Assembly (NCBI RefSeq): GCF_007830055.1
Contig: NZ_VLLE01000004.1
Span: 277,248 to 341,247, forward strand
Length of the DNA: 64,000 nt
Reading direction: 5' to 3'
From: Lacibacter cauensis
GTDB lineage: Bacteria > Bacteroidota > Bacteroidia > Chitinophagales > Chitinophagaceae
A program made the position numbers and the translations under genes. Each line of letters starts with the position of its first letter. Positions within the stretch are counted from its first letter, which is position 1. Below are positions 10,820-24,997 of the stretch, one piece after another. A model generated the notes under the pieces. That model made no database searches, was not told where the DNA came from, and was given only the letters and a program-made list of their open reading frames with translations.

Positions 10820-12094
10820 TCAACGGCCTTTGTACTTGTTTGTGAAATAGCTGAAAGAAAAGTAACTGGCCGCAATGCCAATAACGGCAAACACAATGAC
10901 CAATAAGGAATAAAACGAAACCCAGTTGAGTTGCAGTTTGAATAACTCTTTCGACAGCATTACCGAAATACTGCCGAGGTAGCCCCAGGCATCGGCCAGG
11001 TAAATTAAAAAGCCCACATTACCTGCAATGCTGAATGTTGCCAGCAAGCGTTCAAAAAACACACTGTTGAATAATACATAAGCAATGTATAAACCAAGCC
11101 CGGTAAACTGCATCCACAAAGCACCATCGAGCATGTTAAAATGAAACAGCAGCGAAGCTACTCCTGCCAGCAAAAAGCCCAGCATCAACAACCAATGAAT
11201 AATGCGAAAGGCTTTCATATTCTTTCGTACAAACACTAAGGTGCCGATCAATGCCAGCACCGCAAGCGATGTAATGGTTTCTGTTTTTGCAAACACAGCA
11301 GCATTTTTTGCATAGCCCAGTTCGTTCCACATATTGGCCATGTAATTATCACGCAGGTCTCGCATAATGGTTAACAACAGATAGATGATTACAAAAGCAA
11401 CAACTCCCCATTTGTATTTTTGTACAAACAAACGTCGTTCTTCGCTGTTCATAGGTTTGCGAACAGTGCGTTCGTTTTCATCGTCTGCATCGGGTGGTGC
11501 CGCTTTTTCCAACAGTACATAAAACACAAACAATGGAATTGCAAAAACAGTTGCAGTTGCAAATGGCATCCAGTATTCACTCATATTCCAATCAAGCAGC
11601 AGCCATTTACCCACGCTCCTGCTGAAACCTCCCGCAAAAATGAAACTCACCGCCAACACCACACCAATAAAATCGGTTGCTCTTCTTCCTTCAACATAAC
11701 TAAATACCACGCCCCACATAAAGCCGAGTGTAAACCCATTCAGCAAAAAACACAACATACCAAACGGTGCAGGTACAACCGCAAACAGCAACAGGCTTAT
11801 CCAGGCAGTACCAACCATCAACAAACTTGTTCGCCAGCGGCCACGCCGTTGCAATTCCGAAATAAAACGGATGCCGTATAACTTGCTGAGCATATAACCG
11901 ATTACCTGGCTGATGATGAGCAATGTTTGATACGAGACTCCCCAAAACTGCAAGCCGTTAAATGTGGCAACTGTAAATGGTTTGCGGAAGGCAAAAATGG
12001 AAGCGTAGGTGCAAAAAACAACAACAGCTAAGTAAACTGCTGTTGCAATCTGCTTAGCTGAAAAAGTTGCTGTAGTATGTTGTTGCTTATTCAA
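10820..12094 (-). CDS. DUF5690 family membrane protein (MFS-like)
   Basis: A polytopic inner-membrane protein of 424 residues with about 12 hydrophobic segments, laid out like a major facilitator. The N-terminal part (YASIFAFRKPFTVATF, YMLSKLYGIRFI) and the central GFMWGVVFSYVEGRRATDF segment are typical of the DUF5690 proteins of Bacteroidota, whose substrate is unknown. It is read in the same direction as the ABC exporter and the downstream secreted protein gene, with gaps of 94 and 48 bp, so a loose transcription unit is possible. Confidence 0.8.
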   Translation of the reverse strand: MNKQQHTTATFSAKQIATAVYLAVVVFCTYASIFAFRKPFTVATFNGLQFWGVSYQTLLIISQVIGYMLSKLYGIRFISELQRRGRWRTSLLMVGTAWISLLLFAVVPAPFGMLCFLLNGFTLGFMWGVVFSYVEGRRATDFIGVVLAVSFIFAGGFSRSVGKWLLLDWNMSEYWMPFATATVFAIPLFVFYVLLEKAAPPDADDENERTVRKPMNSEERRLFVQKYKWGVVAFVIIYLLLTIMRDLRDNYMANMWNELGYAKNAAVFAKTETITSLAVLALIGTLVFVRKNMKAFRIIHWLLMLGFLLAGVASLLFHFNMLDGALWMQFTGLGLYIAYVLFNSVFFERLLATFSIAGNVGFLIYLADAWGYLGSISVMLSKELFKLQLNWVSFYSLLVIVFAVIGIAASYFSFSYFTNKYKGR

Positions 12095-14335: not shown

Positions 14336-14491
14336 TGTATGCAAAATTAACCTCAAAATCTTAAACCTATTCAAGCACAGTTTATGCCAAGACGGAGATT
14401 TGTGCGAATAATCACATAAAACTCGTTAACAATTATATAATATTACCTTAGCTGATGCATGGATGGAGCCTTCTAAATTTGCAGCACAGTC

Positions 14492-15178
14492 ATGGAGCCC
14501 AAAGGAAAAAAAATTCTCATTGCCGACGACGAACCGGATATTCTTGAAATACTGGAGTATAACCTTACCGTAGAAGGTTTTACTGTTATCAAGGCAAAAG
14601 ATGGCGATGAAGCACTTCATTTAGCCAAGCAACAACAACCCGATTTAATTATTCTGGATGTAATGATGCCCCGTAAAACGGGCATGGAAGTTTGCCAGAT
14701 CTTACGTTCGCAGCCCGATTTCGCCAATACACTCATCATCATACTTACTGCATTAAACGATGAAGCCAGTCACCTGAAAGGTTTCGAAATGGGTGCAGAT
14801 GATTATGTAAGCAAACCCATCAGCCCCAAGGTGCTCATCAGCCGTGTAAATGCATTATTGCGCCGCAGTTTCCGCAGCGATGATTCCATTATCAAGATTG
14901 GCGATCTGCAGATTGATAAAGAACAGTTTTTGGTGAAGTATCACGGACAGGACATTATTCTTGCCAAAAAAGAATTTGAGCTGTTGGCCTTATTGGCCTC
15001 GAAGCCGGGCCGTGTGTTTCTGCGCCACGAAATTTTAAACCAGGTGTGGGGTGCCGATGTAATTGTGGGCGACCGTACCATTGATGTACACATCCGCAAA
15101 ATCCGCCAGAAACTCAACATCGATTGTATTACCACTGTTAAAGGTGTGGGTTATAAATTTGAACTTGGCACAACTTAA
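14492..15178 (+). CDS. phoB: OmpR/PhoB family response regulator, probable PhoB
   Basis: A response regulator of 228 residues. The receiver has the acidic pair IADDEPD, the phospho-acceptor Asp56 in IILDVMMP and Lys108 in DDYVSKPIS. Residues 130-226 are a winged-helix DNA-binding domain of OmpR/PhoB type (ILAKKEFELLALLASKPGRVFLRHEIL, then DRTIDVHIRKIRQKL). PhoB-class proteins bind direct repeats of 11-bp period. Such repeats lie upstream of the TonB receptor and the phosphate porin a few kilobases away, which supports the name. A PhoR-like kinase follows after 40 bp. The name is inferred from context. Confidence 0.8.
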   Translation: MEPKGKKILIADDEPDILEILEYNLTVEGFTVIKAKDGDEALHLAKQQQPDLIILDVMMPRKTGMEVCQILRSQPDFANTLIIILTALNDEASHLKGFEMGADDYVSKPISPKVLISRVNALLRRSFRSDDSIIKIGDLQIDKEQFLVKYHGQDIILAKKEFELLALLASKPGRVFLRHEILNQVWGADVIVGDRTIDVHIRKIRQKLNIDCITTVKGVGYKFELGTT

Positions 15179-15218: not shown

Positions 15219-16280
15219 ATGATCAATTCCCGACAGCTTACTCCTGTTCAGCTTTCTGCTTTTACAGCCTTTACCATTTCATTACTGGTAGGCCTGGCCA
15301 ATTATTTTTTCATCCGCAGCTGGTGGATTGCCCTGCTGAGCTTTGCAGTGCTGTTCATCATCAGTTACCTGCTGATCCGTTATTTTACCGAGCGGTTTAT
15401 TTATCGCCACATTAAACTCATTTACAAATTCATTTCGCAAACCAAGGCTACCAAACGGGAGGAGTTTTACAACAAATCGCTGTTACCCGAAAAAAGTTTG
15501 CAGGAGGTGAGTGCCGAAGTAGAAGCATGGGCCGAACAAAAACGGGAAGAAATTGAAGTACTGAAACAAAACGAGCAATACCGCAAAGAGTTTCTGCAAA
15601 ACCTGAGCCATGAATTGAAGACACCCATTTTTGCAGTGCAGGGTTATATTGATACATTGCTCAGTGGTGCCATGCACAAAGAAGACGTTGCCAAAAAATT
15701 TTTACTCAATACTTCCCGTAACATCGATCGTTTAGTAAACCTTGTTGATGATCTGGATGAAATTTCGAAACTCGAAAGCGGACAGCAGCAATTGTACAAA
15801 CAAAATTTTGTTATACAGGAACTGGTACAGGATGTGTACGAAAGCCTTTTACTGAAAGCGGCAGAGAAAAACATTAAATGCTCCATTAAAAAGAACAGCG
15901 AACTGCCGATTACAGTTTATGCCGATAAAGAAAAGATACGCATGGTGCTGATTAACCTGGTGAGTAATGCCATTAAGTACGGCAAACAAAACGGCAGTAT
16001 AGTTTTCAGTGTATATAAAACACACGGCAACCTGGTGCTTGCAGAAATCAGTGATGATGGCTATGGTATTGCCGAAGAACATCTCACCCGTATTTTTGAA
16101 CGCTTCTACCGTACCGATATGGCCCGCAGTCGTAAAGAAGGCGGCAGTGGTTTAGGTCTTTCTATCTGCAAACATATTATCGAAGCACATGGCCAAACCA
16201 TGCATGTACGCAGCCGTCTTGATGTGGGCAGTACATTCGGCTTTACATTGGAAGGTCGCCGTACCGATGAAGATGAATAA
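15219..16280 (+). CDS. phoR: Sensor histidine kinase, probable PhoR
   Basis: A 353-residue membrane kinase. Two helices (about 13-31 and 35-53) with almost no periplasmic loop are followed by a linker, a HisKA domain with His131 in NLSHELKTPIFAV, and a HATPase_c domain with the N box (INLVSNAIKYG), DDGYGI, FERFYRTD and GSGLGLSICK. The lack of a periplasmic sensor is the PhoR layout, in which the signal comes from the transport machinery through a PhoU protein. It is co-transcribed with the regulator before it and lies beside porin, DUF47 and PiT genes. The role in phosphate sensing is inferred. Confidence 0.8.
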   Translation: MINSRQLTPVQLSAFTAFTISLLVGLANYFFIRSWWIALLSFAVLFIISYLLIRYFTERFIYRHIKLIYKFISQTKATKREEFYNKSLLPEKSLQEVSAEVEAWAEQKREEIEVLKQNEQYRKEFLQNLSHELKTPIFAVQGYIDTLLSGAMHKEDVAKKFLLNTSRNIDRLVNLVDDLDEISKLESGQQQLYKQNFVIQELVQDVYESLLLKAAEKNIKCSIKKNSELPITVYADKEKIRMVLINLVSNAIKYGKQNGSIVFSVYKTHGNLVLAEISDDGYGIAEEHLTRIFERFYRTDMARSRKEGGSGLGLSICKHIIEAHGQTMHVRSRLDVGSTFGFTLEGRRTDEDE

Positions 16281-16623: not shown

Positions 16624-18000
16624 TTAGTAAATATTTGTTTGCGGTGTAAAGCTTGCCCAGCCTTGTGCCCAGTTGGTTGCACCAAATGCGCCAACAAATG
16701 TTCCTGCAGTATTAAAGTATGCACTCATACCACTGAAGTTTGCACCGGTTAAAGCAGGAGAACCAACTTTTGGCAAGAAGTTAGGCGCATTTAAGTTAAA
16801 CGGATCTGTTAACTGTGCTGCATTTCTGTCTGCAAGCAAGGTATTACCCTGACCCAATGCTGCTGTTTGAAAATCAGCATTTGTAAGCAATGTTTGGTTA
16901 TTGGTTGTAAACGCAATTGCAGGTGCGCCTACAGGAAAAGCATTGTAAGAGAATACAAGATTGTTTCTGAAGATGCTTGTACCATTCTTGTAGTCATTGA
17001 TGGTATTATCGCTTTCAAGTACAATGGCATTTCCTTTTGAACCAAGGATGATCGAGTTACGGAATTCGAAACGTGCAGAACGACGCCATCTGTTACCATA
17101 ACGGTGACGTGAGCCATTGTTAGCAGTTCCTGTTGTATCGTATGGTCCTATGAGTGTAAAGTTGCTGAGGATTGGACGTGTTATCGGAGTAGCAGTTGTA
17201 CCTGATGCATCGTTATCGCATTCGATCTGGTTGGCATCATCATCATCAGAATATTTATCACGCAATGAAACAGCATACTGAATCTGGCCATTATAACCAA
17301 AGTCGAAATCAAAATCATCATCACCACTTGCAAAAGAAATCAGGTTCTTACAGTTTACGGTACCACCAAAAAATTCAAAGCCATCATCACCACAATATGA
17401 TGTTTGTACGTTTTCAATAATTGTACCTGCACCAACACCATATAATGTAAGACCGTTTAACTCACTGTTATTCTCTGCAGTAATACCGGCAAACTCAATA
17501 CGCACATAACGGAGAATACCACTGTTATCGCCTGCATCGGTACCACCATAAGGACGGTTACTACCACCTTCGGTAATAGGAGCGGGTGTTAACGGACGGT
17601 TAGTAGGCGCATATCCGCAAATTGAAATACCACCCCAATCAAATTCACGACGCTGACCTGCAGCTTTATCACTTGTAAAAACAATCGGTGCGTCTGCCTT
17701 ACCATCTGCAACAATTTTACCACCTTGTTCAATAATCAATGCAGATTTTACGGATGCATCTGCAAGTATAACTGAACCAGCTGCAATTTCGAGTGTTGCA
17801 CCTTTACCAACATATACAAACCCTGATAATTTATATCTGCCCTTTGGTAAAGAAAGATTGCGATCGATACGGCCGGTTAATGTAGAAGGTACTACTGTTG
17901 TATCGGAACCACCGGTACCACCAACAGTTTCATTGAAGTTAACCTTGATACACGCCGTAAATGTTAAGGCTGTAATTGCTGCAACTAATAACTTTTTCAT
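16624..18000 (-). CDS. Surface lipoprotein with right-handed beta-helix, receptor partner
   Basis: The ATG at 18000 starts a signal peptide with lipobox TFTAC (about Cys17), giving a 458-residue lipoprotein. The body has the turn pattern of a parallel beta-helix: AGSVILADASVKSALIIEQGG, then GKADAPIVFTSDK, then YVRIEFAGI, ENVQTSYCGDDGFEFFGG and an acidic stretch DDDFDFDFG and DDDDANQ that could bind calcium or other cations. It lies 128 bp downstream of a TonB-dependent receptor in the same direction, between phoBR-like genes and a phosphate porin. By analogy with receptor-lipoprotein pairs it probably captures a substrate at the surface, perhaps a phosphorus source. The substrate is unknown. 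Confidence 0.75.
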   Translation of the reverse strand: MKKLLVAAITALTFTACIKVNFNETVGGTGGSDTTVVPSTLTGRIDRNLSLPKGRYKLSGFVYVGKGATLEIAAGSVILADASVKSALIIEQGGKIVADGKADAPIVFTSDKAAGQRREFDWGGISICGYAPTNRPLTPAPITEGGSNRPYGGTDAGDNSGILRYVRIEFAGITAENNSELNGLTLYGVGAGTIIENVQTSYCGDDGFEFFGGTVNCKNLISFASGDDDFDFDFGYNGQIQYAVSLRDKYSDDDDANQIECDNDASGTTATPITRPILSNFTLIGPYDTTGTANNGSRHRYGNRWRRSARFEFRNSIILGSKGNAIVLESDNTINDYKNGTSIFRNNLVFSYNAFPVGAPAIAFTTNNQTLLTNADFQTAALGQGNTLLADRNAAQLTDPFNLNAPNFLPKVGSPALTGANFSGMSAYFNTAGTFVGAFGATNWAQGWASFTPQTNIY

Positions 18001-18128: not shown

Positions 18129-20915
18129 TTACTTCGTCAAATCGTATGTAAAGCCAATTGTAAATGTTGTACCCGGTGTGTAGCTGTTCCATAAGCGATC
18201 AGTACCACGGGTAAACTTATTTTTAGCATCGATGTTCTCGTAGAAAAAGAAAGGCTGGTTGAAGATGTCGGATACTGCCAAACGCAACTCGCCTTTGTTC
18301 TTTAATACTTTGGTTGAAATCTGGAAGTCAACCAAATCTCTCGGGCGTTCGTAAATGTCATAGATCAACTGGTCTTTACCACCCGCCAATGCAAGACGTT
18401 GGCCGATTCTGTTATAGAGTAACGAAGCGTTTACTTTTCCTTTCTTATCGTTAAACTGCAAACCAACATTTACGAGGTAAGGCGATTGTCCCTGCAACGG
18501 ACGATTGAATGATTGTGCCTGGCCATTAGCACCTACACCCGATAACTGTACTGCAGAAGAAAGTACGGTTACATTGGTAAAGATGTTGAGCACATCAAGC
18601 TTCGGTGCAATAAAACCTAAACCCTTCCGCACTTCCACTTCAAAACCATAAGTCTTTGCTTCACCTGCATTCTGGAATTGGTAACGACGTACGCTACCTG
18701 CTGCCAACGCTCTCAACTCAATAGGATCAGCAAAGTGTTTATAGAAAACTGCAACCGAAACACCTTCGCTTGCTTTTGGATACCATTCGTAACGCAGATC
18801 TGCATTCCAGATATTGCTTCTGCGTAAAGTAGTATCGCCACTCACTGCATAGTTCTGTTCGTAATCGTAGAAAGAGAACGGAGCAATTTCACGGAACTCC
18901 GGACGGGCTACGGTACGGTAACCAGCCAAGCGTATCTGCTGTTTATCTTTTAAGCTGTAGCTTACGTTAAGTGAAGGAAGGATATCCCATTTGCTGGTGT
19001 TTACAATAACACGCTTTAAATCGGAACGGACTGTGGTTAAAAACTGCTGGAAATTTTCAACACGTGCTCCCCACACCAAACGAATTTTATCGGAGAACTT
19101 ATTATCGAACATCGCATAGCCATTGTTGATAATGCTTACACCAAAATATTTGTCTTCGTTTTGTGTTTCATCAGCATACACAAACTGTCCGTTACCAATG
19201 TACTGTTGCTTAAACACTTCGTTAAAGGGAAGCGTAAGCAAGCTGCTGTTGGTATTATCATCTAAACGGTAACGGAAATTTCTCGACTGGAAATCACGGA
19301 TGCGGATGAGTGTACCACCACCTGCTTTAAAGGTTTGCTTTTCGTCGGCCAGGGTAAATGGCACAGTTAAAGTACCACCACCGCCGTAAGAAAAATCTTT
19401 CAGGTTGCTGAAGAAACGACCTGTTTCGTCTGTAACCAATGAAAACGGATTGTTTGTTCCTGTGCTGCGCAGGTAAGAAACGGTACGCAGGTCGGGTTGT
19501 GCTTTTATATTGTAAGAGAAGTTACCATTTAACTTCAGCTTAATTCCTGATTTAGATAATTGCTGTTCTGCCTCCAGCTGCGAAGAAAGCAATGAACGCT
19601 GATTGAGATAGCTGCTGCGGAAGTTGATATCCTGACCATCCAGCAGGTTCTTACCGCTTCTTACATAGTAATTATCATCGTACAACTGGTTGTAAAGATT
19701 TTTGAAAGCTACTTTCAGTTTGCGGCTTGTAAATGCTACGTTGGCAACAGCACCTACACTTGTTGAAAAACGGTTCTGGTGATCTGTAAAGCTGCGTTCA
19801 ACAGTACCAACAAAGTCGTTGATGTTTCTGTTTACATCGTAAATGTTCTGTGCGTTACGGTAGGTAAGCCCGGTAATAAATCCAAACGAATTACCGTTGC
19901 TGAATTTGTATCCTTTACCGTAGGTAAGATTATAGCTTTGTATAGGTGCTGCTGTTATTTTACGTTCGTTAAATACATCCGAACGGAAAAGTTTTGATTG
20001 CTCAGCTTTTGCATCATCGCCGAGCTTTGCATATTGGTTGCGTGAAAGAAAACCTTCGGGTAAATTTCTTCTGCCATTATCAAAGCCAAACCAATCGCTT
20101 GTTTCACGTTGGTTGGTTACAAAATCTTTGAAGGTAGACTGTGTGTTGTAACCCAGGTTAATACCTATTGAAAGAATATCTTTTGTAGGAACATCTTTTG
20201 TCTGGATCTGCACCAAACCACCTGCAAACTCACCTGTTAAATCGGGTGTTGCTGTTTTGTTGATGATGATGTTATCGATGAGCTGCGAAGGAATTACATC
20301 GAATGAAAAAGCTTTCTTATCAGGTTCAGAAGAAGGCAGCTGTGCACCATTGATGAGTGCCTGGTTGTAACGATCGCTTAAACCACGAACAATTACAAAC
20401 TTATTATCCTGGATAGAGGCACCGCTTACACGCTTTAATACTTCACCGGTGTTTTTATCGGGCGTACGGCGGATGAAATCGGCAGAAAGACCACTTGATA
20501 AAGAAGTATTGTTGCGCTGAAAACTTAATAAACCTGATGTGTTTTCTTTACGGGCTGTACTGCGGATAACGATTTCTGTACCTTCTTTCGCTGCAACAGT
20601 AAGCAAAATGGTAATTACGTTCTCTTCAATATTATTCTTTACTTCTACTTCGTCAACCATTTTGGTTTGGTAACCAACAGCAGTTACAGTAAGTGTATAT
20701 TTTTTTCCCTGTTCGAGATTTACTGAAAAGCGGCCTTCAATATCTGCAGCAATTGATTTGCTTATTTCATTAACTGTAATTGAAGCTCCTGCTACAGGTT
20801 CGTTTTTCTGGTTGAGCACACGGCCATTTAACCTTGAGGTTTGAGCGGTTGCCGAAAAGGCAACAAGTACAAGTGTAAAAAGGGTAAGCAGTAATCCTTT
20901 AAAATTCCTTTGCAT
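18129..20915 (-). CDS. TonB-dependent outer-membrane receptor of the phosphate island
   Basis: The ATG at 20915 opens a signal peptide (MQRNFKGLLLTLFTL) ending in ATAQ; an in-frame start 21 bases upstream falls inside the promoter. The 928-residue protein has a CarboxypepD_reg-like domain (about 25-115), a plug (RTPDKNTGEVLKRVSG, FVIVRGLSDRYNQALING, ending near GGLVQIQTKD) and a long beta-barrel ending in an aromatic TFTIGFTYDLTK. Such receptors import large or scarce substrates with energy from TonB-ExbBD. The promoter carries a six-box Pho-like array, and the lipoprotein gene follows. It probably takes up a phosphorus-containing substrate; inferred from context only. Confidence 0.88.
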   Translation of the reverse strand: MQRNFKGLLLTLFTLVLVAFSATAQTSRLNGRVLNQKNEPVAGASITVNEISKSIAADIEGRFSVNLEQGKKYTLTVTAVGYQTKMVDEVEVKNNIEENVITILLTVAAKEGTEIVIRSTARKENTSGLLSFQRNNTSLSSGLSADFIRRTPDKNTGEVLKRVSGASIQDNKFVIVRGLSDRYNQALINGAQLPSSEPDKKAFSFDVIPSQLIDNIIINKTATPDLTGEFAGGLVQIQTKDVPTKDILSIGINLGYNTQSTFKDFVTNQRETSDWFGFDNGRRNLPEGFLSRNQYAKLGDDAKAEQSKLFRSDVFNERKITAAPIQSYNLTYGKGYKFSNGNSFGFITGLTYRNAQNIYDVNRNINDFVGTVERSFTDHQNRFSTSVGAVANVAFTSRKLKVAFKNLYNQLYDDNYYVRSGKNLLDGQDINFRSSYLNQRSLLSSQLEAEQQLSKSGIKLKLNGNFSYNIKAQPDLRTVSYLRSTGTNNPFSLVTDETGRFFSNLKDFSYGGGGTLTVPFTLADEKQTFKAGGGTLIRIRDFQSRNFRYRLDDNTNSSLLTLPFNEVFKQQYIGNGQFVYADETQNEDKYFGVSIINNGYAMFDNKFSDKIRLVWGARVENFQQFLTTVRSDLKRVIVNTSKWDILPSLNVSYSLKDKQQIRLAGYRTVARPEFREIAPFSFYDYEQNYAVSGDTTLRRSNIWNADLRYEWYPKASEGVSVAVFYKHFADPIELRALAAGSVRRYQFQNAGEAKTYGFEVEVRKGLGFIAPKLDVLNIFTNVTVLSSAVQLSGVGANGQAQSFNRPLQGQSPYLVNVGLQFNDKKGKVNASLLYNRIGQRLALAGGKDQLIYDIYERPRDLVDFQISTKVLKNKGELRLAVSDIFNQPFFFYENIDAKNKFTRGTDRLWNSYTPGTTFTIGFTYDLTK

Positions 20916-20933
20916 AGTATCTATTTGATGCTG

Positions 20934-20961
20934 CAAAAGAACTCCTGCTATGTTATGCCAA
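20934..20961 (-). promoter_or_regulatory. Promoter of the TonB receptor gene
   Basis: On the minus strand a TTG (20959-20961) is separated by exactly 17 bases from TTCTTTTG (20934-20941), which matches the Bacteroidota -33/-7 pattern TTG-N17-TAnnTTTG at all but one fixed base. It overlaps the operator array and lies 19 bases ahead of the chosen ATG. The porin gene has the same spacing. Confidence 0.7.
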
Positions 20962-21010
20962 CGTAAAGCCCATGTTAAGGAACTATTACCTGCATGTTAA
21001 GCCAATATTA
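20949..21010 (-). promoter_or_regulatory. Six-box direct-repeat operator, Pho-box-like
   Basis: Six 7-bp boxes start every 11 bp: on the plus strand TGTTATG (20949), CGTAAAG (20960), TGTTAAG (20971), TATTACC (20982), TGTTAAG (20993) and TATTAAC (21004). In the sense of the receptor gene the core is CTTAACA. A 7-bp box with a 4-bp spacer is the PhoB layout, and TTAACA is the Bacillus PhoP consensus. The boxes run up to and across the -33 TTG, as Pho boxes do in promoters that need an activator. Box matches and period are seen; the binding protein is inferred. Confidence 0.75.
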
Positions 21011-21023
21011 ACAACCCTAACAA

Positions 21024-21058
21024 AAAGGCGTTCTGCATGAGTTATGCAGAACGCCTTT
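21024..21058 (-). terminator. Terminator of the phosphate porin gene
   Basis: A perfect 15-bp stem (AAAGGCGTTCTGCAT / ATGCAGAACGCCTTT) with loop GAGTT. On the minus strand it is followed by TTTGTTA. It lies 24 bp after the porin stop and isolates the porin from the receptor operator that follows at once. Confidence 0.9.
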
Positions 21059-21081
21059 CGATATGCGTAAGCTTGTTTTAT

Positions 21082-22389
21082 TTAAAACCGGAACTGCAGT
21101 CTACAAGTAAGTACATTGTCTTTCAAATCGCCGGTATACCCGTTGATAGCTGTAGTCTCATTCTTTACAAATGCATAATATAAGATCAACTTTACATTTT
21201 CGGTAATATAGTTGGCATAGCCTACACCCAAGGTGTTGTATTTAATATTTGCTGCCGAAAGGTTGGCCCCTGCCGCACCAATTTGTTTACCCTTTACATC
21301 TGTATTCGGATCGTACCAATCGTACTTGAGCAGCAACTGGTGCTTATCGCTGAAGAGATGCTGCAGAAAATAAATATAGGCACCGTTGAACTTACGTACA
21401 TGAAACCCATCCGTACCGGTAACCAGCGCTGCAGGAGTTTCGGAGCTGTTGGCCGAACCGGTTTGTGTACCCTGGATGTATTCGCCCCGCAGCTCAGTAA
21501 AGCCTTTCCTGTTTTTAAATTTCAGCTGTACATCGGCACCATAATAGCGGCGGGGAGAAACGGCCCCGATGTTGGTGAGCGACGAATCGACCTGCATTTT
21601 TTCAATGCCGCCGGTATTTACAACGTTGTATTTGTATTTGGTGTTTTGCAAAAGTCCGCCATGCAACAGGGATATACCGCCCGAGAGGATCATTTTTTTA
21701 CCCAAGGGATAAGGCTTTAATGCCAAACGTGCTATCAGGTCCTTGCTGTTATCAAATTCGCCGGTGGCATTAATACCCTGGCCATTGAATAAACCCAGAT
21801 CCATTTTCAGGTAGCGGAGCTTCGCATCTTTTTTCCGTTGCTCAAAGGTGACCATGGCACCAAGATCACGCTCGCTTTTCATTAAGGTCTGGCTCATGCG
21901 TCCACGCTCAGGTGTTTCACGATCGCTGCTGCTCAGGTTTACTTCGTACCCGAACGGGCGGGCAAACATACCTGTGGTGAAAGCAAAGGACTGGTATTTG
22001 TTTTCGAATATGCGGCCCCACACATCCCGTATGGTAAAGCCACGTTCATTTACATCGAACTGGAAAACGATTTGCACACCGGGTTTGGTTTCTTTGCCAA
22101 AATGAACATAATCAATACGTACACGGCTGCGGCGTAAGGTAAACCGGTTATTAACATTGGTACCAAAATCGGGACCTTCGAAGGTTTTAATCCCTTTACT
22201 TTCAGCAATCTGAAACTGAGGCTGGATGTAACCGGAGAAGCGGAGGTGATCGAACTTTTTGTAAATACCCAACATGCCTTTGCCGGCATCTTTGGTGGTA
22301 TCAATCATGTCCATGAGAAACTGAGCCCTGGCAGCCATGGGCAACGTACATAACAGGAGCAGGAATGCCCTGTACATTGATTTAGTCAT
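21082..22389 (-). CDS. Phosphate-selective porin, OprP/OprO family
   Basis: The ATG at 22389 starts a signal peptide (MTKSMYRAFLLLLCTLPMAARA) and has AAGGA about 7 bases upstream; the longer frame to 22437 crosses the promoter. The 435-residue barrel begins with FSGYIQPQFQ, continues with FTLRRSRVRIDYVHFG and VVFQFDVNERGFTIRDVWGRI, and ends YTGDLKDNVLTCRLQFRF with a terminal Phe. This is the order seen in the OprP/OprO family (Porin_O_P), which let phosphate or polyphosphate through the outer membrane. It is divergent from the DUF47-PiT pair and carries a four-box Pho-like array at its promoter. Confidence 0.88.
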   Translation of the reverse strand: MTKSMYRAFLLLLCTLPMAARAQFLMDMIDTTKDAGKGMLGIYKKFDHLRFSGYIQPQFQIAESKGIKTFEGPDFGTNVNNRFTLRRSRVRIDYVHFGKETKPGVQIVFQFDVNERGFTIRDVWGRIFENKYQSFAFTTGMFARPFGYEVNLSSSDRETPERGRMSQTLMKSERDLGAMVTFEQRKKDAKLRYLKMDLGLFNGQGINATGEFDNSKDLIARLALKPYPLGKKMILSGGISLLHGGLLQNTKYKYNVVNTGGIEKMQVDSSLTNIGAVSPRRYYGADVQLKFKNRKGFTELRGEYIQGTQTGSANSSETPAALVTGTDGFHVRKFNGAYIYFLQHLFSDKHQLLLKYDWYDPNTDVKGKQIGAAGANLSAANIKYNTLGVGYANYITENVKLILYYAFVKNETTAINGYTGDLKDNVLTCRLQFRF

Positions 22390-22409
22390 AATAATTTCCT
22401 TAAGCGCCG

Positions 22410-22437
22410 CAAAGGTATAAAACCGGTTACGGGCCAA
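22410..22437 (-). promoter_or_regulatory. Promoter of the phosphate porin gene
   Basis: On the minus strand TTG (22435-22437), 17 bases, then TACCTTTG (22410-22417), a full match to TTG-N17-TAnnTTTG. The expected start lies about 16 bases before the ATG at 22389. The last operator box abuts the TTG. Confidence 0.75.
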
Positions 22438-22477
22438 TGTTAAGCCTTCGTTACCCCTGTGTTAAGAAATCATTAAC
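22438..22477 (-). promoter_or_regulatory. Four-box direct-repeat operator, Pho-box-like
   Basis: Boxes on the plus strand start every 11 bp: TGTTAAG (22438), CGTTACC (22449), TGTTAAG (22460), CATTAAC (22471). The order of box types (TGTTAAG, xxTTACC, TGTTAAG, xATTAAC) is the same as in boxes 3 to 6 of the array at 20971-21010. In porin sense the array ends in CTTAACA directly against TTGG of the -33 element. It could also serve the divergent DUF47-PiT transcript, whose -7 element lies 37 bp away. Confidence 0.75.
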
Positions 22478-22513: not shown

Positions 22514-22521
22514 TACCTTTG
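22514..22521 (+). promoter_or_regulatory. Candidate -7 element of the DUF47-PiT operon
   Basis: TACCTTTG is a full match to TAnnTTTG, 15 bases ahead of the DUF47 ATG. No TTG is found 17 bases upstream (ACT instead), which fits a promoter that depends on an activator. Confidence 0.5.
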
Positions 22522-22536
22522 CGGAAATTTTAAAAC

Positions 22537-23187
22537 ATGTCAGGAATCAATTCTATTCTTAAAATTTTCCTCCCAAAAGACCGTGTATTTTACCAGTTGT
22601 TTGAAGAAGTAGCTACAACTGTTGTTGAAATGTCGCACTTGCTTAAGAAACTCGTTAAAGAACCTTCATTTGAAGAACGTGAAAAAATCATTGCACAAAT
22701 TGAAGACCTCGAACACAAGAACGACGACCTTACGCATAAAATTTTTACTGAATTAAGCCGCAATTTTATTACTCCGTTCGATCGTGAGGATATTCACTAC
22801 CTGGCCAATGCCATGGATGATGTAGCTGATTATATTTTCGCTTCTGCCAAGAAGATCAACTTCTACCGTGTAGATCCTTTACACGAAAGCTTCAGCAAGT
22901 TTGCAGATTTAATTGCACAGGGTTCTGAAAATATTAAGACAGCCATTTTTGAACTGAAAGACATGAAGAACATGCGCCAGATTACAGATGCGCTGGTTCG
23001 TGTAAACAGTATCGAAAACCAGGCTGACGATGTATTTGATATGAGCATTGAGCGTTTGTTTGCAACAGAATCTGATGCGAAAGAAGTGATCAAGAAGAGA
23101 GAGATTTACCAGGTAATGGAAAATGCAACCGATAAGTGCGAAGATGCTGCAAACGTGATTGAAAGCATTATCGTTAAATACGCATAA
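22537..23187 (+). CDS. DUF47 PhoU-like regulator of phosphate transport
   Basis: A cytoplasmic all-helical protein of 216 residues. Repeated acidic helix motifs (EDLEHKNDDLTHKIF, FITPFDREDIHYLANAMDDVADYI, SIENQADDVFD, ATDKCEDAANVIE) are those of the DUF47 branch of the PhoU superfamily, which bind metal clusters with E/D-rich repeats. Members are found next to PiT transporters and are thought to control them. The PiT gene follows after 100 bp in the same direction. Confidence 0.93.
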   Translation: MSGINSILKIFLPKDRVFYQLFEEVATTVVEMSHLLKKLVKEPSFEEREKIIAQIEDLEHKNDDLTHKIFTELSRNFITPFDREDIHYLANAMDDVADYIFASAKKINFYRVDPLHESFSKFADLIAQGSENIKTAIFELKDMKNMRQITDALVRVNSIENQADDVFDMSIERLFATESDAKEVIKKREIYQVMENATDKCEDAANVIESIIVKYA

Positions 23188-23287: not shown

Positions 23288-24997
23288 ATGACTCTTCTTA
23301 TCGTAATTATAGCGCTGGCGCTCATCTTCGATTACATCAATGGTTTTCACGATGCAGCCAATTCCATTGCCACCGTTGTATCAACAAAAGTATTAACGCC
23401 TTTCCAGGCGGTTTTATGGGCAGCATTCTTTAATGCCATGGCCTATTTTATTTTTAAAGATCATGCCGTAGCCAACTCTGTTAGTAAAACAGTACAGAAA
23501 GAGTTTATTACACTACCTGTCATTCTTGCCGGTTTAATAGCTGCTATTTTCTGGAACCTGCTTACCTGGTGGTATGGTATTCCTTCTTCATCTTCACACA
23601 CCCTTATTGGTGGTATGGCCGGTTCGGCTATTACGCATGCCATTGTTACCAAAGGCTGGGGTGTTGGCTGGTCGAAAATTGTAGAAACAGATATCATTCT
23701 CGATACCGTTCTGTTCATCTTCTTTGCACCGATTATTGGTATGCTCATTTCCATATTTATCACCATTGTTACGGTGATGCGGAATCTGTGGCTGCGGCTT
23801 GCGGTTATTGCATTGGCAACCACCATTACGGTTGTGCTGTTCGATCGTTTTGAAAGTAACAAAATGGATCAGAACCTGCAGAAGTTTTTAAAAGTTGACA
23901 AGTATAAAAAAGAAGTAAAAACAGCGGAGGAAAAACTGAAGAGTAATCCAAACGACGCTGCTGCGCTTGCTGCTTATACTACCGGCAAAGAAAAACTGGA
24001 TAAAGCATTACCCAACTACAACAAGATACTGGCCCTGGTACACGATTTTGATAAACTGGGTGCCAACGGTATTGCAAAAGCTGCCGCCGATTCGGGTTGG
24101 CTGAAAGATATTGAAGCGAGCCGTTTGAAGGATGATGTACGCAATGCCAACGATTACCTGATTATGGAGGCCCGTTCTACTGAAGATGCGGCTGTTAAAA
24201 AGGAATTCGACATCGCCAAAGAAAAAACAGAGCTGTATAAAGATCCTCTTAAACTGTATTTCAAAAAAGAAATCAGTGCAGACAGTGCAATTGCGCTCAT
24301 GAGTGCAATCTATCCCATTAAAGATGCCAATAAAGAAAAAGTAAAGTCGAAGATTGAAAAGTTCAGTGCAGAAAAAGCGCTGGCAAAAGACATCGACAAA
24401 GCGGATAACAGCACGATTGTGTGGGGTATTATTTTCACGGCTATCTTCTTCGGCCTGGTTTACTTGTATGTGGAAAAAGTACGCACACCAACTGCCTATA
24501 AAGTTGCCAATATGTTTAAGAAGCTGCAGCTCTTCAGTTCGGCAGCCTTCAGTATTGGTCATGGCGGTAACGATGCGCAGAAAGTGATGGGTATTATTGG
24601 CGCTGCTTTAATTGCCAGCGGCAGTATTCAAAACTTCTCCGACTTACCACACTGGGTGCCTGTAGCCTGTTACTTAGCTATTGGTATTGGTACCATGAGT
24701 GGTGGCTGGAAGATTGTAAAAACCATGGGTACCAAAATCACCAAGGTTACACCGCTGGAAGGTGTGGCGGCAGAAACAGCCGGTGCGTTCACCCTTTTCT
24801 TTACAGGGCAAATGGGTATACCGGTTTCAACCACGCATACCATTACCGGCAGTATTATGGGTGTGGGTGCCACCAAACGTTTAAGTGCAGTGCGTTGGGG
24901 CGTTACCGTTAACCTGCTTTGGGCGTGGATTTTAACCATTCCTGTAAGTGCGGTGCTTGCGGCCATTGCCTACCTCATCGTTAATTTATTCCTGTAA
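23288..24997 (+). CDS. pit: PiT family inorganic phosphate transporter
   Basis: An inner-membrane phosphate:cation symporter of 569 residues. The two inverted PiT signature regions are present: GFHDAANSIATVVSTKVL near residue 20 and GHGGNDAQKVMGIIGAAL near 425, with GIPSSSSHTLIGG and GIPVSTTHTITGS. Between helices at about residue 190 and 375 there is a charged, coiled-coil-like cytoplasmic insert of some 180 residues, larger than in most bacterial members. It follows DUF47 in one operon and lies in the phosphate island. A terminator follows its stop. Confidence 0.95.
   Translation: MTLLIVIIALALIFDYINGFHDAANSIATVVSTKVLTPFQAVLWAAFFNAMAYFIFKDHAVANSVSKTVQKEFITLPVILAGLIAAIFWNLLTWWYGIPSSSSHTLIGGMAGSAITHAIVTKGWGVGWSKIVETDIILDTVLFIFFAPIIGMLISIFITIVTVMRNLWLRLAVIALATTITVVLFDRFESNKMDQNLQKFLKVDKYKKEVKTAEEKLKSNPNDAAALAAYTTGKEKLDKALPNYNKILALVHDFDKLGANGIAKAAADSGWLKDIEASRLKDDVRNANDYLIMEARSTEDAAVKKEFDIAKEKTELYKDPLKLYFKKEISADSAIALMSAIYPIKDANKEKVKSKIEKFSAEKALAKDIDKADNSTIVWGIIFTAIFFGLVYLYVEKVRTPTAYKVANMFKKLQLFSSAAFSIGHGGNDAQKVMGIIGAALIASGSIQNFSDLPHWVPVACYLAIGIGTMSGGWKIVKTMGTKITKVTPLEGVAAETAGAFTLFFTGQMGIPVSTTHTITGSIMGVGATKRLSAVRWGVTVNLLWAWILTIPVSAVLAAIAYLIVNLFL

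Follow-up and report, generated by a model that had tools for sequence, protein, structure and literature searches.

Does a PhoB-like regulator of the Bacteroidota, which are important phosphorus recyclers, recognise a Pho box of its own, and what would such an operator look like? In E. coli, the Pho box keeps a constant position with respect to the core promoter, and the gene of the regulator itself carries boxes too. No paper defining a corresponding operator for Bacteroidota was found in those parts of the open-licence literature that were searched. The question arises from one region of a Lacibacter cauensis window (by which we mean the whole 64-kb stretch of DNA that was analysed), where genes for a two-component system stand next to genes for outer-membrane proteins and a phosphate transporter:

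14492..15178, plus strand: PhoB-like response regulator (Response_reg and Trans_reg_C; Pfam, NCBIfam), the proposed binder
15219..16280, plus strand: PhoR-like histidine kinase (Pfam; below the NCBIfam cut-offs)
16624..18000, minus strand: lipoprotein-like protein with a predicted beta-helix (structure model), the next gene past the receptor; relatives' genes carry arrays of their own
18129..20915, minus strand: TonB-dependent receptor (CarboxypepD_reg, Plug and OMP_b-brl_3 by Pfam; ORF 18129-20936, ATG at 20915)
21082..22389, minus strand: Porin_O_P-like outer membrane protein (ATG at 22389; PF07396 with 19.8 bits against a gathering cut-off of 20.9)
22537..23187, plus strand: PhoU_div (DUF47) protein (Pfam)
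23288..24997, plus strand: PiT phosphate transporter (PHO4; Pfam)

The window porin is 80% identical to that of Lacibacter luteus, and identities of 94% and 99%, respectively, were obtained for the receptor and PhoU_div proteins. The protein encoded at 16624-18000 has no Pfam family; its predicted model (mean pLDDT 74.5) finds weak PDB matches that include several beta-helix proteins, none of them at E<=0.001.

Two tandem arrays of short boxes are found in this region, one at the receptor promoter and one between the porin gene and the divergent phoU_div-pit genes, each close to recognisable promoter elements:

20946..21011, minus strand: six-box array with an 11-bp period at the TonB receptor promoter (sequence; in-phase boxes in 16 relatives)
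20959..20961, minus strand: TTG of the proposed -33 element of the receptor promoter, within the box 5 spacer and N17 from TTCTTTTG
20934..20941, minus strand: -7 element TTCTTTTG of the receptor promoter; the last box starts 19 nt before its TTTG
22433..22476, minus strand: four-box array between the porin (minus strand) and phoU_div-pit (plus strand) genes
22410..22417, minus strand: -7 element TACCTTTG of the porin promoter, with boxes starting 63, 52, 41 and 30 nt before TTTG
22514..22521, plus strand: -7 element TACCTTTG of the divergent phoU_div-pit promoter

Read directly in gene sense, the receptor array runs from 21011 down to 20946 as TTAATATTGGC TTAACATGCAG GTAATAGTTCC TTAACATGGGC TTTACGTTGGC ATAACATAGCA and the porin array from 22476 down to 22433 as TTAATGATTTC TTAACACAGGG GTAACGAAGGC TTAACATTGGC. 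The first-pass annotation had reported six and four boxes with an 11-bp period, and both arrays are indeed there on the minus strand, though a few bases away from the positions it had given (20949-21010 and 22438-22477). The CTTAACA that it took as the common core occurs in some boxes but not in all, and the repeat unit shared by both arrays is more generally NTAAY every 11 bp, with TTTAC in box 5 of the receptor array. The proposed TTG-N17-TAnnTTTG form fits both promoters, with one mismatch in the -7 element of the receptor promoter and with the TTG sitting inside a box spacer. TAnnTTTG is described as the flavobacterial -7 box in PMC9723704. All period-11 starts of the 64-kb window (two four-box and four three-box starts) lie within the two arrays, compared with 0.005 and 0.14, respectively, expected by chance per 64 kb in a first-order simulation, and no three-box start was found in the window at periods 8-10 or 12-15. 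A 43-nt pattern drawn from both arrays has these two places as its only matches without mismatch in the 4.95-Mb genome; with up to three mismatches it is found at six places (two being the same arrays on the other strand) and its reversed control at one. Between the porin and receptor genes, at 21022-21059, an inverted repeat AAAGGCGTTCTGCAT / ATGCAGAACGCCTTT with a minus-strand T run can be read by eye; it is terminator-like, so that the receptor promoter would stand alone.

The phase of the boxes was followed at the receptor promoter of 16 relatives, i.e., at those loci where the receptor homologue comes after the porin. An earlier choice of TTTG by best score had been biased, and we therefore counted from the TTTG[CT] closest to the start codon, which is a predicted and not a mapped element. 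Perfect NTAAY boxes were found 19+11n nt before this TTTG in 45/64 cases across the 16 promoters, whereas unrelated phases gave 0-2; a start at 30 nt, which is the same register one box upstream, gave 39, and starting at 19 nt with another period left 12-13, about as many as the first box alone. Three or four perfect in-phase boxes are present in 14 of the 16 promoters, two in one and a single one in the remaining locus (L052). Relatives that retain the receptor gene have mostly kept the array, as the initial interpretation implied, and tandem direct half-sites at an 11-bp period stand in a fixed phase to the predicted core promoter, 19+11n nt from TTTG.

For the second array the picture is less simple. 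In the 350 nt before the porin match, two half-sites exactly 11 bp apart are present at 43 of 78 porin loci but the strict pair is absent from the other 35. Other periods yield 0-2 of these 78 upstream regions except for period 8 (16/78), which we read as the overlap ATAATTTCTTAAC within the core. The reverse strand also has period 11 at 12/78 porin loci and, at the regulator promoter, in 13/30 genera; TTAA is a palindrome. The array next to the porin may serve the divergent phoU_div-pit genes more than the porin itself. We consider it possible, if somewhat doubtful, that the boxes at 22433-22476 mainly control phoU_div-pit, perhaps by repression in low phosphate, with the porin as a bystander; this alternative concerns the second array only and is compatible with the Pho-box reading. 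PhoB represses orfA-pit in Sinorhizobium. In 26/29 loci, 56 or 57 nt separate a phoU_div-side TTTG (the second TTTG in two of them) from where the conserved two-box core starts, while the porin-side spacing of this core varies among loci. Furthermore, OprP of Flavobacterium johnsoniae (Fjoh_0542) is reported without induction under phosphate depletion (-1.3, not significant; PMC8115612). Against a bystander role, the four-box form of the window stands in porin phase (63, 52, 41 and 30 nt), arrays also precede other porin genes, and in another family (f5) the PhoU_div boxes run in direct orientation.

Three profiles were used to look beyond the locus. R1 combines 18 promoters (the 16 relatives' receptor promoters and the two window arrays) from sequence only; R2 is a control in which the columns of R1 were reset to a 10-bp period, applied to family genomes only; and R3 rests on out-of-family sites, of which 87 matches were fetched, 50 aligned and 45 retained. 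R3 leans towards good arrays because sites were kept only with TAA in the first two boxes, and it is not wholly independent because its sites came from R1, which had been trained with both window arrays. Match counts of the genome searches are lower bounds because first-look candidates were scored in part. At E<=0.01, R1 has at least 99 matches in at least 50 of 60 family genomes (own genome included, each from another genus), none of them deep within an ORF of >=200 aa by the test applied, compared to eight for R2 in the same 60 genomes, six of which are R1 arrays. Ten of these genomes lack an R1 match at E<=0.01 although the regulator is present, and three of the ten assemblies are <90% complete. 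Across the phylum, R1 matches occur in at least 70 of 198 genomes, 65 of which belong to other families. R1 scores the receptor and porin arrays, both training members, at 40.5 and 27.8 bits. In the own genome, R3 ranks the porin/pit array first (27.1 bits, E=2e-5) and the receptor array second (22.3 bits), followed by two sites with E=0.003, one preceding the gene of a choice-of-anchor I lipoprotein (20.5 bits; R1 E=0.012) and the other a SusC-SusD-DUF5689-metallophosphatase operon (20.2 bits; R1 E=0.18). After these come the receptor array once more, with its second half (16.4 bits), and weak sites. The latter operon (L159, 6102-13966) lies behind a four-box array and resembles the Pus systems of F. 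johnsoniae. The out-of-family consensus is TTAACAATTTCTTAACATTGnCTTAACATT, not a CTGTCAT half-site of the E. coli type. As genome searches, a 17-nt core with three mismatches (170 places versus 182 for its control) and a three-box plus CAAA pattern (47 versus 73) were rejected; loose patterns alone are useless for finding sites.

What kinds of genes follow the arrays was judged from Pfam matches of representatives and, for the others, from BLAST clusters. In the family, all 97 non-own matches of the 99 were taken, two of them lacking a callable ORF; in the phylum, 89 of 117 were taken, leaving out nine own or family duplicates, two further family rows and the 17 weakest. Two matches precede the same gene, which is thus counted twice, in the pairs h12/h92 and h54/h78 of the family and p04/p56 and p07/p44 of the phylum. 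Receptors dominate the family set (44/97), with 34 in the cluster that has the window receptor as its best reference, i.e., the training class, and ten in a second cluster of which one was scanned (PF13620, PF25183). Lipoproteins resembling 16624-18000 (10/97) and a PF12850/PF00149 metallophosphatase cluster (PlcP-like; 9/97) come next, followed by eight porins or porin-like proteins, comprising two porins and six members of a barrel-like group in which the one scanned has no Pfam match while a related phylum protein matches Porin_O_P. The family set further contains three DnaB, two members of a PhoX cluster, one of them matched by Pfam, two sulfatase/phosphodiesterase-type proteins and one each of choice-of-anchor I, purple acid phosphatase, MauG and Glyco_trans_1_3, plus 15 unlabelled rows including the two without ORF. 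The 89 phylum rows comprise 29 receptors, 14 porins or porin-like proteins (eight porins and six barrel-like, the latter four distinct; 12 distinct genes), four PstS-like (PF12849), two PstC-like (PF00528), one PhoU and four PhoU_div proteins, two regulator-like genes (one 54% identical to the window regulator), four lipoproteins like 16624-18000, two choice-of-anchor I proteins, three metallophosphatases, one each of PhoX, DUF5690 and glycosyltransferase, and 21 unlabelled. Judged by gene class, arrays are thus enriched before phosphate-type genes in the own genome, the family and the phylum (R1 and R3 matches), as had been anticipated for phosphate-starvation genes genome-wide. As background, the 59 loose-pattern loci of the own genome minus the three true-array loci left 56, at which 79 ORFs on either strand included six matches to the regulon protein set: one PF12850-type phosphatase, dnaB, three SusC-like proteins and one response regulator. 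The PF12850-type gene among these six (PlcP-like by BLAST; own genome, L127, ~1501-1544) has a degenerate in-phase three-box promoter that R3 did not report. A DUF5690 gene lies near the regulator at 10820-12094 and the copy in another family (L299, 398-1711) directly behind an array; DUF5690 is a candidate member of the phosphate regulon.

Which protein would bind these boxes? The two best of 102 families for the window regulator are the NCBIfam PhoB families TIGR02154 and NF053854, both below their cut-offs (228.7 of 296.2 and 216.9 of 270 bits). Each of the 60 family genomes has exactly one orthologue at E<=1e-60 (54-100% identity, own included), with a second, weaker match near 1e-42 in two of them, and the recognition-helix residues 195-200, RTIDVH, are invariant in 30 genomes. 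R1 matches lie within 12.5 kb of the regulator gene in 14/99 cases compared to 0.59 expected, and its own promoter carries boxes:

14426..14447, plus strand: two boxes TTAACAATTAT ATAATATTACC in the regulator promoter, phased like the arrays (52 nt from TTTG; R3 9.4 bits, E=0.11 in the window)
14474..14481, plus strand: -7 element TAAATTTG of the regulator promoter (sequence)

Taken alone, these putative window boxes are weak at E=0.11. The pair is present at 43/43 loci, window included and mostly from closely related Chitinophaga, and two boxes at 11 bp are found in 20/30 genera, compared with 1-5 at other periods. A period-17 signal at 35/43 regulator loci we read as a third unit.

OmpR/PhoB-type proteins generally use 11-bp direct repeats, and receptors are the commonest class among the matches. 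Another OmpR-family regulator (e.g., of envelope or iron stress) could hence be the one that binds, with phosphate genes only part of its targets, but we regard this as improbable in view of arrays before PstS-, PstC-, PhoU-, PhoX-, PF12850- and PhoU_div-type genes, the boxes at the regulator's own promoter and the linkage of arrays to its gene. That the arrays are chance or AT-rich repeats without function would agree with loose patterns being no commoner than their reversed control in the own genome, but this is barely conceivable given the 10-bp control (8 versus 99), the phase lock, the R3 ranking and the window simulation.

The arrays with their 11-bp period and phase lock to the -7 element, their conservation, the phosphate-type genes downstream and the linkage to the regulator gene agree with the PhoB-type architecture proposed at first pass, and it is very probable that they are PhoB-type operators, i.e., a Bacteroidota Pho box, under the neighbouring PhoB-like regulator. 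Its phosphorylation, its binding and the sign of its action we infer as follows. Upon phosphate shortage, the PhoR-like kinase would phosphorylate the regulator, which would bind head to tail with one monomer per 11-bp half-site of about CTTAACATTG. The row of monomers would reach as far as the -33 region, with its last box 19 nt from the TTTG of the -7 element, and recruit sigma-A polymerase. Outer-membrane scavenging by the receptor and probably the porin would thus be turned on, together with several phosphatases and the gene of the regulator itself. The porin-side array would also act on the divergent phoU_div-pit promoter.

A low-phosphate response of the window genes is suggested by analogy with F. 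johnsoniae only. Its phosphate-depletion stimulon is alike in comprising a PF14905 receptor that is encoded next to phoBR and shares the Pfam domains of the window receptor (8.0-fold), PusCD (8.9- to 10.7-fold), PhoX (12.5-fold), PlcP (8.6-fold), MauG and several lipoproteins, with PhoB itself at 3.1-fold (PMC8115612). The main text of PMC8115612 has no occurrence of pho box, motif or promoter and names no operator. PhoB of B. fragilis shifts a 512-bp pstC promoter, with no motif given in the available parts of that paper (PMC3547664), and one paper describes putative Pho boxes for the plcP clusters of marine bacteria, flavobacteria possibly among them (PMC4796936). The E. coli PhoB Pho box likewise consists of direct 11-bp half-sites upstream of phosphate genes (PMC4415409), whereas the arrays described here have a CTTAACATTG-like half-site instead of CTGTCAT, up to six units and a -7 TAnnTTTG instead of a -10 element. 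Close in sequence is the cyanobacterial SphR box, CTTAACCT, with nearly the same half-site, an 11-bp period (8+3 bp) and at least three tandem copies (PMC1906773). It belongs to another phylum and promoter type, and most targets in the present case are genes for TonB receptors, porins and lipoproteins.

A further possible parallel is the PhoP box of the Gram-positive Bacillus, TT(A/C/T)ACA, with a TTAACA-like core and an 11-bp period.

Boxes were also seen at a gene outside phosphate metabolism. Two boxes at 11 bp are found upstream of dnaB in 13/30 genera (1-6 at other periods) and three in a row in 4/30 (0-1 at other periods). Such dnaB-promoter arrays are present in the own genome (L157, 2192-2308) and at L392, L394 and L396; in several sequences the array was seen, uncounted, downstream of a TATATTCG-type -7 element. 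We tentatively suggest that the phylum's phosphate regulator might also hold back DNA replication via the promoter of this replicative helicase gene in part of the family, since a regulator bound downstream of the TATATTCG-type promoter would block transcription. If true, phosphate starvation would directly lower helicase supply.

With a profile that performs well within one family and less strongly in the phylum at large, regulon maps can be drawn from genomes. Among proteins of unknown function, a role in phosphate metabolism is suggested for receptors, lipoproteins with a beta-helix, choice-of-anchor I proteins and DUF5690 proteins. PhoB binding in Bacteroidota thereby becomes directly testable, and the response of these bacteria to phosphate shortage can be mapped.
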